Below are positions 5,048 through 28,231 of a DNA stretch of 58,185 nt, piece by piece. The notes beneath the pieces were generated by a model, which saw nothing but the letters and a program-made list of their open reading frames with translations, did no database searches and was not told where the DNA came from. The position numbers and the translations under genes were made by a program. The DNA is from Candidatus Fermentibacterota bacterium (GTDB taxonomy: Bacteria; Fermentibacterota; Fermentibacteria; Fermentibacterales; JCC-6), in assembly GCA_014728175.1 (NCBI GenBank), contig WJMA01000028.1, forward strand, positions 1 to 58,185. Reading direction: 5' to 3'. The number at the start of each line of letters is the position of its first letter. The first letter of the stretch is position 1.

Positions 5048-5274
5048 GTTTTCTCCAGCTGCCTGCAGGCGACCGGGCGGAGCTGGTGGCGGACTTGGCA
5101 AGCCCTGGCTCTGCCGGGCCGCCTATCTTTTTAGAACGATGCTACATAACCATGATAAGGGTGCGAATCGTTCCGGTCAATATTGACCAATCGAGAGCCA
5201 TCTGCCGATTGCCCGGTGGGTAAGGCGGAATTAAATTCTCCTCGAGACAGAATACCACCAACGGAGGAGTCGTG

Positions 5275-25874: not shown

Positions 25875-27887
25875 TTAGGCGTCTACCTCGTCTATGGGCC
25901 CGTTTAGCTCCTCGGTGCCCTCCAGCACGAACCTGCCGTCCCTTATTATCTCTATCTGCTCCCCATCTCCCGTCACCGCCGCTATCGATGCAATCGAGTG
26001 GTAGGGAACCGTAATATCTATGTGCTTGAACGTGTAGGCTTCCTCCATGGACTCATCGCGTTTGGCCGTTTTCTCGTTGAACCGCGCGATGACCTCCTTG
26101 CCGCTCTCGTGGTTCATGGTGGGGAGATCCTCCTGCAGCGCGAAGCAGGTATCGCCTATGGCGAAGTGGGGACCCATCTTCTCCAGTATCACCACCGGAA
26201 TTACGTCCATGATCCCGTGGCGCCTGGCCATCGCGTAGGCCTCGGTGTTGCTTCCTATGGCGAACTCCCCCATGGGAAGCGTATCGTGGGGGTGGAGGAG
26301 GTTGTCCTTTAGGTATCTGCGGTTCTCTTCGGGGTCGTCGAAGTTGGTGCATGAGTAGTCCTCGATCATCCCGTCGACGAACTCGATGCGCAGGTTTTCG
26401 AAACGCAGCCTGTTGAGGAAGGCCTCTTCCACGTGCAGCACACCGCTGGTTCCCTGGAGCAAGGGAGAGGTGAACACCTCGCCCAGGGGGATGTTCTGAG
26501 CAGCAAGCTCGTTGGTGAAGTTGGTCTGGCTGGAAGGATCCTCGATGTCATGCATGTTGATCCTGAGGTCGGTCTGGTTGGATCCACTGCCCATGACTCT
26601 TACATGATCCGCCCGATCGAGCACGTCCACCATCGCCTGCTGGATCCTACCGTACCTCTCGCTGTCCAGCATGTTGACCTTCATCGTATCCCTGAAGATA
26701 GCCTCGAAATCCCCCCTTACGAACGGTCCCGGGAAGGATGCCAGGGAGAAACCCGTCTCCTTGCGCGGGCATCTGGCGTTCCAGATCTCCACGTTGACCT
26801 GCTGGAATCGCCTGTACAACTGCGCGGAGTCGGAATCGGGCGCGACCTTTTCCTTCTTCTCTATCGGGTCGAAGGGCTCCCTTCCGAAAACCCTCATCAC
26901 CAGATGACCCGAGAACCTGTCCACATCCTCCGAGTAGGAATCCAGGGCCTTGGTCATGTACTCTTTTTGCTTCTCGATACTCTCCTCGTCCAGGTGGAGT
27001 ACCGCATCGAACTTGTGATCGTACTGGGCCTGCCTGCAGGGAAGCATGGGTGAAACGGAGGCCAGGAAGGGCGTCATGCCCATCTCTTCCAGCTTGAAGG
27101 CAATCGCTCTGTAGAGCCTTTCGAACCCCATCGGCAGGCCGACCGAGACGTTCTTCCTCTTGCTGAGATCCTTGTTCTCCAACTCGAAGCCCTTTACGTA
27201 CGCCCTGGCAAGCGTATCGGCTACCTCCTCTATATCCGCCTCCGGAAGGCCGGAGAGGAATTCCGCCGTTCTCAGCTCGGCGTCACTTACCCTCGGTCCG
27301 TAGCGGAACATGTATCCGGGATTGTCATCCGCACCCAGGGCGACGTTCGTATTATGGGTCCGCGACGGCGAAATCACGGAGCCCAGAAGGAACTCGGTCT
27401 CGAGCGTCAAATCTCGCCGCCAGTGTTCGACCAGGATATCCCGGACGGCTTCCCCGTCTAGGTGCCGGCCGTTGGATGTGGCCTCCGCCATCCGCAGAAG
27501 TGGCTGGAAGGCTCTGCTCAGCAAATCCTTTCGCTCCTGGCAGGCCGTTTTCCCGTTTCCCAGAAGGCGCATGAACCAGGAAGCCACCGCCTGGCCAGGC
27601 ACCGGGCCCAGACGCTCCACCGCGTAGGAAGGATCGGCCCAGCTGTCCTCGTAACCCTCCGGGGACAGCTCCTTGTACAGCCTTTCGTTCTCAGTCTTCA
27701 ACTCCTCGAAGGATTTGCCTCCGCTACCCTTTCCCCGGCCTTCCAGGCACATGCTTCCCATGGTAAGGACCTTCTCCGCCGCCGCACCCAGGAATTCAGC
27801 CATCGGCTCCGTTGCTTCTCTCGTGCTGCTTAGAATTTCCCTCACGCTTTCGAGCTGTGCTTCCAGCGGTACGGCTTCGTCATTCAT
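25875..27887 (-). CDS. M29-type aminopeptidase with long N-terminal extension
   Basis: 670 aa from ATG 27887 (MNDEAVPLEAQLESV), which has GGGAGG 9 nt upstream; the frame to 27983 is rejected. The C-terminal ~370 residues match M29 thermophilic aminopeptidases: GEVFTSPLLQGTSGVLHVEE, GEFAIGSNTEAYAMAR, MGPHFAIGD and the final metal pair HID (FKHIDITVPYH). M29 enzymes are usually ~370-415 aa, so ~280 N-terminal residues (helical, charged) are extra and unassigned. A cytoplasmic metallo-aminopeptidase is expected. Its upstream region carries two micro-ORFs and a terminator-like hairpin that may control it. Confidence 0.85.
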   Translation of the reverse strand: MNDEAVPLEAQLESVREILSSTREATEPMAEFLGAAAEKVLTMGSMCLEGRGKGSGGKSFEELKTENERLYKELSPEGYEDSWADPSYAVERLGPVPGQAVASWFMRLLGNGKTACQERKDLLSRAFQPLLRMAEATSNGRHLDGEAVRDILVEHWRRDLTLETEFLLGSVISPSRTHNTNVALGADDNPGYMFRYGPRVSDAELRTAEFLSGLPEADIEEVADTLARAYVKGFELENKDLSKRKNVSVGLPMGFERLYRAIAFKLEEMGMTPFLASVSPMLPCRQAQYDHKFDAVLHLDEESIEKQKEYMTKALDSYSEDVDRFSGHLVMRVFGREPFDPIEKKEKVAPDSDSAQLYRRFQQVNVEIWNARCPRKETGFSLASFPGPFVRGDFEAIFRDTMKVNMLDSERYGRIQQAMVDVLDRADHVRVMGSGSNQTDLRINMHDIEDPSSQTNFTNELAAQNIPLGEVFTSPLLQGTSGVLHVEEAFLNRLRFENLRIEFVDGMIEDYSCTNFDDPEENRRYLKDNLLHPHDTLPMGEFAIGSNTEAYAMARRHGIMDVIPVVILEKMGPHFAIGDTCFALQEDLPTMNHESGKEVIARFNEKTAKRDESMEEAYTFKHIDITVPYHSIASIAAVTGDGEQIEIIRDGRFVLEGTEELNGPIDEVDA

Positions 27888-27988
27888 TCGAAGAGACCTC
27901 CCATGTCGCTTTCTTAATGCAATTTCTACCCACCGCACGGGCGTAAGTCGAGAAGCTCCGTATCGGATCGGGTGGAAATACAAATATA

Positions 27989-28018
27989 GGGGCCGGGGCG
28001 ATGCAACACCCCGGCCCC
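27989..28018 (-). terminator. GC-rich terminator/attenuator hairpin upstream of the aminopeptidase
   Basis: Perfect 10-bp stem GGGGCCGGGG/CCCCGGCCCC with a 10-nt loop; in the leftward direction it is followed by TATATTTGTATTT. It lies between the micro-ORFs and the aminopeptidase start, so it either ends a small transcript or attenuates the operon. Confidence 0.65.
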
Positions 28019-28026
28019 GTCCTCAT

Positions 28027-28061
28027 GCGGGGAGTATGGAGCTAATTTCCTCCCTCCCCGC
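28027..28061 (-). promoter_or_regulatory. Hairpin enclosing the stop codon of micro-ORF B
   Basis: Outer 8-bp stem (GCGGGGAG 28027-28034 with CTCCCCGC 28054-28061) and inner 4-bp stem (28038-28041 with 28050-28053), separated by a 3-nt bulge. The 8-nt loop contains the TAG of micro-ORF B. It starts 8 nt from the terminator hairpin. Confidence 0.6.
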
Positions 28062-28083
28062 GCCTTGCTTTATACTCTTCCAT
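28042..28083 (-). CDS. 13-codon micro-ORF B
   Basis: Encodes MEEYKARRGEGGN and ends in TAG. The evidence is the ribosome-binding site: AAAGGAGGTG 3-6 nt before the ATG is a perfect anti-16S match, one of the strongest in the window. Its last codons and stop fold into the hairpin at 28027-28061. It aligns without gaps with micro-ORF A (shared start, Arg/Lys at 7, Arg 8, Glu 10), and the two share the initiation context GGAGGTGC..CTATG. Could be a leader peptide whose translation controls the terminator downstream, or a functional peptide. No family recognised. Confidence 0.5.
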   Translation of the reverse strand: MEEYKARRGEGGN

Positions 28084-28111
28084 AGGCACCTCCTTTGCTG
28101 GTTTGCGGCCA

Positions 28112-28143
28112 GTGGAGGCGCAGTTCTAGGCGTGCACCTCCAC
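28112..28143 (-). promoter_or_regulatory. Hairpin enclosing the stop codon of micro-ORF A
   Basis: 10-bp stem (GTGGAGGCGC 28112-28121 with GCACCTCCAC 28134-28143, one G-U pair in the leftward RNA), 12-nt loop containing the TAG of micro-ORF A. Same arrangement as the hairpin at 28027-28061. Confidence 0.6.
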
Positions 28144-28167
28144 GCGCTTTCTCCCGGTGTTCTTCAT
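28126..28167 (-). CDS. 13-codon micro-ORF A
   Basis: Encodes MKNTGRKRVEVHA, stop TAG. GGGAGGTG lies 5 nt before the ATG, about 27 nt after a predicted transcription start at ~28194. The length is identical to micro-ORF B (42 nt including stop) and its stop is likewise placed in a hairpin loop. Basic residues dominate (Lys2, Arg6, Lys7, Arg8). Function unknown; leader peptide or micropeptide. Confidence 0.5.
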   Translation of the reverse strand: MKNTGRKRVEVHA

Positions 28168-28200
28168 AGGCGCACCTCCCTTCGACTACGGACGACTCGT

Positions 28201-28231
28201 AGAATAGACTCCGAGAGGCACGCAAGGTCAA
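28201..28231 (-). promoter_or_regulatory. Promoter for the micro-ORF transcript
   Basis: Leftward TTGACC (28226-28231) and TATTCT (28201-28206) with a 19-nt spacer, slightly long for sigma-70; TCTATT gives 17. Divergent from the lipoprotein gene at 28302. Confidence 0.45.

Follow-up and report, generated by a model that had tools for sequence, protein, structure and literature searches.

Introduction

Leader open reading frames (ORFs) are usually viewed as cis switches for the next gene. In leader-peptide attenuators of the erm and trp type the position of a ribosome on a short ORF selects between alternative hairpins, and anti-Shine-Dalgarno (anti-SD) switching is employed. Stand-alone RNAs that are both terminated and translated are represented by the dual-function sRNAs SgrS, SR1 and RNAIII. 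We know of no described system with tandem leader ORFs whose stop codons lie in a loop.

Two characterized systems come near to the element described here. Among experimentally studied systems the nearest is the speF leader (orf34) of Salmonella, in which ribosome pausing at a stop codon within a hairpin alters downstream folding and access to the ribosome binding site; it acts in cis on speF and involves one 34-codon ORF, arginine codons and Rho control (PMC6386406). The closest trans parallel is rnTrpL/peTrpL of Sinorhizobium, a trans-acting small RNA with a leader-type ORF of 14 amino acids, which arises by attenuation ahead of trpE(G) and carries a single leaderless ORF encoding a functional peptide (PMC7298713).

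The present element lies on the minus strand at positions 28231-27989 of the window, i.e. the 58,185-nt stretch of Fermentibacterota DNA that was analysed. As in the speF leader, a short ORF ends with its stop codon inside a hairpin (PMC6386406), but there are two such ORFs of 13 codons each, with neither a regulated downstream gene nor a conserved codon signal. Unlike rnTrpL it is free-standing, has two SD-led ORFs and encodes no conserved peptide. It belongs to neither type, because a regulated downstream gene, a codon signal and a conserved peptide are all missing. Attenuators of the erm and trp type precede a regulated gene, which this element does not, and the dual-function sRNAs have a conserved peptide and an ORF apart from the pairing region, whereas here the ORF ends are the hairpins. 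The best reading of the sequence is that the element would work much like a leader-ORF attenuator while controlling no downstream gene.

Architecture of the element

The following features were located in the window:
28203-28231, minus strand: promoter-like TTGACC-17-TCTATT (TTGACC 28231-28226, TCTATT 28208-28203)
28172-28179, minus strand: Shine-Dalgarno GGAGGTGC of ORF A, the same in 11/11 copies having ORF A
28126-28167, minus strand: ORF A, 13 codons and TAG (MKNTGRKRVEVHA)
28134-28141, minus strand: SD-like GGAGGTGC within ORF A, covering -13 to -6 relative to its stop codon
28112-28143, minus strand: hairpin 1, 11 pairs, UAG unpaired in the loop
28086-28093, minus strand: Shine-Dalgarno GGAGGTGC of ORF B, the same in 12/12 copies
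28042-28083, minus strand: ORF B, 13 codons and TAG (MEEYKARRGEGGN)
28027-28061, minus strand: hairpin 2, 12 pairs, UAG in the loop
27989-28018, minus strand: terminator-like GC hairpin, 12 pairs (11 G-C), weak U-tract

The 5′ arms of hairpins 1 and 2 are formed by the final codons of ORF A and ORF B, respectively, and an anti-SD (GCGCCTCC) makes up the 3′ arm of hairpin 1. The SD-like motif inside ORF A is a third copy of the SD sequence and is invariant wherever ORF A is present. The region 28231-27989 folds with a z-score of -3.6. All parts named in the original prediction (promoter, two SDs, two 13-codon ORFs, hairpins with the stop codon in the loop, terminator) were found on the minus strand; only the length of the terminator hairpin, given there as 10 pairs, had to be corrected to 12. 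Its tail is T-rich rather than T-only. Terminator-like hairpins of the GGGCCGGGGC...GCCCCGGCCC stem type also recur after unrelated Fermentibacterota genes (L084, L087, L088, L090), some of them with hardly any U-tract.

Apart from ORFs A and B, the 58-kb window has no ORF of 7-29 codons that follows a GGAGGTG; this SD precedes none of 46 longer ORFs there, and the SDs of A and B, of 7-10 nt, are longer than in any of these 46 genes. Together with the folding score, the specificity of the single-unit pattern and the recurrence in other species described below, this points to more than a chance arrangement. The element occurs once in the 2.6-Mb assembly. The 16S tail pattern was not found in a search of the source assembly.

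Distribution and conservation

A BLASTN comparison with relatives gave four homologues, and a scan of 84,980 species' genomes with an IUPAC pattern gave nine matches, all in Fermentibacterota and named Candidatus Fermentibacteria, Aegiribacteria or Hyd24-12. Of 42 Fermentibacterota genomes examined with a covariance model, 12 carry the element: the source and 11 other species. One carrier belongs to the source genus and ten to a second genus within its family, the remaining one coming from a different family of that order. Comparison of these copies shows that the predicted unit and the length of its frame are conserved over three genera in two families of Fermentibacterota, as are the two hairpins and the terminator. 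The original prediction had staked itself on conservation of the ORF starts and stems, and the search of relatives for the SD-13-codon-hairpin unit found both conserved in the 12 genomes.

Copies from most of the second genus are 87-93% identical to one another. Identity falls to 72-76% with G045 and to 57-65% when distant lineages are compared. Every two-unit copy has kept both SDs, both short ORFs and both stop-in-loop hairpins. ORF A has 13 codons in ten copies and 12 in G045 (in-frame deletion), and is deleted in G008; ORF B has 13 codons in 12/12 copies, with a TTG start in G045 and either TAG or TAA as stop. A single-unit pattern (SD-start-23 nt-GGAG-9 nt-stop) matched only the known elements in the 42 genomes and gave no control matches, and neither extra copies nor single units were found elsewhere in these genomes.

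The element is absent from 30 of the 42 genomes, several of those assemblies being at least 95% complete; some absences may be assembly gaps, because the named genomes compared were all metagenome assemblies. Hidden divergent copies in non-carriers were considered and rejected: the weak covariance model matches inspected were ordinary terminators or coding sequence, except for a remnant in G015. A phage or plasmid origin was likewise dismissed, as no match was obtained in the viral contig, phage and plasmid collections searched. No Rfam match was obtained, either for the window at gathering score or for three homologues by permissive search, and nothing was found in the literature on small RNAs in Fermentibacterota.

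ORF A has been lost by a clean deletion in G008 with ORF B retained, and in G015 the terminator and its downstream flank are the sole remnant. This patchy presence and the two reduced loci show that the element is, to judge from these genomes, dispensable. At the G008 locus (L057; contig C101, ~5145-5260) SD-A, ORF A and the 5′ arm of hairpin 1 are missing, so that the leader runs directly into that hairpin's 3′ arm, with ORF B and the remainder intact. At the syntenic G015 locus (L081; contig C103, 1100-1700) only the terminator hairpin and the downstream convergent gene remain. Homology between G015 and G019 begins exactly at CGATAAGG, and the terminator hairpin may therefore also serve the convergent gene.

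Conservation of the reading frames

Across lineages the two ORFs have accumulated 10-19 substitutions per 42 nt. Under random substitution only 3-22% of trials per ORF kept the 13-codon frame intact, which gives a joint survival probability of about 1e-6 over five lineage-ORF cases in three lineages, a rough estimate as ORF sites also carry structure. Changes at the signals are harmless in kind (ATG to TTG, TAG to TAA, deletion of a whole codon), and indels of 1-3 nt fall outside the ORFs. Only UAG and UAA are used as stop codons, never UGA.

The encoded peptides behave differently. Rough dN/dS values, from small samples of few lineages, were 1.01 for ORF A and 0.97 for ORF B, and 0.75 and 1.17, respectively, for codons 2-8, which lie outside the hairpin arms. 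The ORF B peptides of four lineages share almost nothing (MEEYKARRGEGGN, MAENGRRRGEDGF, LAGLDCKSRESGY, MVGNKYKCGENKV). Since the peptides drift at a dN/dS of about 1, selection appears to act on frame, length and stop position and not on the peptide. Neither the regulatory codons or arrest peptide of an attenuator nor the conserved peptide of a dual-function sRNA were found.

These data bear on the possibility of a bicistronic micropeptide gene, in which two 13-residue peptides would be the product and the hairpins would merely protect or terminate the message. Such a gene would account for the strong SDs, the conserved frames, the often basic character of both peptides and the R-x-E-V-x-A end of the ORF A peptide, which is retained in most copies. 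However, dN/dS is near 1 in both ORFs even outside the hairpin arms, ORF B has nearly no shared residues, and the residues kept in ORF A coincide with the GGAGGUGC stem arm, and we regard this explanation as unlikely. The stand-alone micropeptide transcript offered as the second option of the original prediction is thereby weakened in its coding part, while its stand-alone part is supported by the variable flanks described below.

RNA structure and covariation

Hairpin 1 was present in the predicted folds of 11/11 copies and hairpin 2 in 12/12, and in every hairpin the stop codon was unpaired or at the loop edge. With the sequence 3′ of the stop codon shuffled, 0.5-4% of trials per genome gave an equally good hairpin 1, and 0.15-10% an equally good hairpin 2. 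The terminator hairpin retains 97.5-98.3% of pair cells, with changes on both sides, and forms the last conserved block.

In the RNAalifold consensus (R1), 93.8% of cells can pair, compared with 46-52% when the structure was slid along the alignment. Seven pairs are changed on both sides (shuffle mean 2.8, reached by 1/500 shuffles), and the covariation score was reached in 9/500 shuffles. The significance of the covariation belongs to this full consensus structure only: for the two stop hairpins and the terminator, 91.8% of cells are kept and covariation is no better than in shuffles, and hairpin 2 alone gave no significant covariation in a MAFFT alignment. The hairpins are thus predicted structures that persistence supports well and covariation only moderately.

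The R1 consensus additionally contains a long-range helix of the 5′ leader and SD-A with SD-B and the start of ORF B. Since hairpin 1 is partly replaced by alternatives in this consensus, both states are possible in the modelled RNA. In G045 (L037/L058) leader GCCAA pairs with UUGGC at the start of ORF B, a pairing that the change from ATG to TTG lengthens; the other copies form the same helix as ACCA/UGGU.

A ribosome or 30S decoy would explain some of these features, with three or four exposed or releasable SDs and tethered termination capturing ribosomes, for example during slow growth. Consistent with this are three identical GGAGGUGC motifs plus one GGGGAG, the SDs that exceed those of the 46 window genes, and stop hairpins sized like a ribosome footprint. 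A single-copy gene, however, would need extreme abundance for this purpose, opening either SD costs 5-10 kcal/mol in the free RNA, and a decoy requires neither exact frames nor stop codons; this role is accordingly given little credence.

Flanking regions and downstream genes

In the alignment of all copies, similarity drops to randomness immediately upstream of TTGAC and immediately downstream of the GC hairpin. TTGAC and TCTATT, with which the alignable block starts, are retained in nearly all homologues. By its sequence the element has its own promoter and terminator, with no dependence on neighbours. The neighbouring genes differ among nearly all genomes, also within a genus, and are convergent in about half of the 12; downstream genes comprise an M29 peptidase in the source genome and elsewhere convergent pyrI, a convergent Y2-type transposase, FG-GAP, metallo-beta-lactamase, EamA and others. 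The position ahead of an aminopeptidase operon, from which the original prediction started, holds for the source genome alone, and is therefore an accident of position. The M29 ORF is listed at 25875-27983 on the minus strand from a TTG at 27983, and its translation more probably starts at an SD-led ATG near 27887 (GGAGG...ATGAATGACGAAG).

A cis-acting leader, i.e. a translation-controlled attenuator of the downstream gene and here of the M29 aminopeptidase as first proposed, would have the observed order of leader ORF, hairpins and terminator, would comprise short SD-led ORFs that overlap alternative hairpins, as they do in the predicted structures, and would lie close to a co-directional gene, the M29 ORF following within about 110 nt. 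Against it, no co-directional regulated gene is conserved downstream in the 12 genomes, where the neighbours are unrelated and often convergent, and the conserved block stops at the terminator. Moreover, no antiterminator partner of the 12-pair GC terminator is consistently conserved: the suggested pairing of CCCCG in hairpin 2 with CGGGG of the terminator stem exists in the window but was inconsistently retained in relatives upon inspection of the folded sequences. Attenuation of the aminopeptidase is thus not supported, and a cis leader in general, which the convergent neighbours contradict, is very improbable. A CsrA/RsmA sponge RNA of the CsrB/RsmZ kind, considered for the repeated GGA motifs and for CACGGAGG in the ORF A tail, which fits the CsrA/RsmA site consensus CANGGANG, was rejected as scarcely credible, barring an unrelated protein that binds GGA, because csrA (PF02599) is absent from 24/24 sampled Fermentibacterota genomes and was found in control genomes, most GGAs furthermore sitting in stems or SDs.

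Proposed mechanism

We favour a stand-alone translated RNA gene of ~210 nt, built of two tandem SD-13-codon-stop-hairpin units and reporting the status of translation in trans; from the sequence comparisons the chances of this reading are put at about even. A more specific version is offered tentatively, as one that may well prove wrong: a new class of free-standing translation sensor in which two tandem mini-ORFs of fixed length would set a terminating ribosome, tethered by an internal SD, exactly in a hairpin, and in which initiation, elongation or RF1-dependent termination (the stops being UAG and UAA only) would be read out in trans with no meaningful peptide being made.

In such an RNA, ribosomes would begin at both SDs, translate 13 codons and, melting the hairpin, come to termination within it. 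In ORF A, 5 nt separate GGAGG from the last sense codon, a distance equal to the GGAGG-AUG spacing in most copies, and GGAG is also found at -13 to -10 of the stop codon in ORF B. At both stops the GGAG at -13 would tether the ribosome during termination, as an SD does during initiation, so that a ribosome whose A site contains the stop codon would be SD-held within a hairpin of roughly footprint size. Which hairpin arms are available would depend on where the ribosome stands. Hairpin 1 has a 3′ arm that could pair alternatively with the last part of ORF A or with SD-B, so that a ribosome slowed in the middle of ORF A would close ORF B, and one reaching the ORF A stop codon would leave ORF B as open as in the free RNA, or more so.

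The cost of opening SD-B was computed with a 31-nt ribosome footprint masked. With the ribosome at codons 6-9 of ORF A the opening energy was higher in most genomes, and with the ribosome at the ORF A stop codon it was at or below the free-RNA value in most genomes. The switch amounts to 1-5 kcal/mol, is weak or irregular in some copies and is non-monotonic in the window itself. From these models we infer a control of SD-B by ribosome position.

The output is probably in trans: the RNA would signal translation status as a regulatory RNA and not via a cis gene. A C-rich leader, considered as a trans seed, occurs in the large genus and is lacking in the window.

Significance

We know of no earlier candidate regulatory RNA family described for Fermentibacterota. 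The natural deletion in G008 provides a ready-made comparison for function. The combination of an SD, N codons, a stop codon in a loop and a peptide free to vary may serve as a comparative signature for other phyla. If the proposed reading is true, a small RNA can fulfil its function simply through being translated, termination included.
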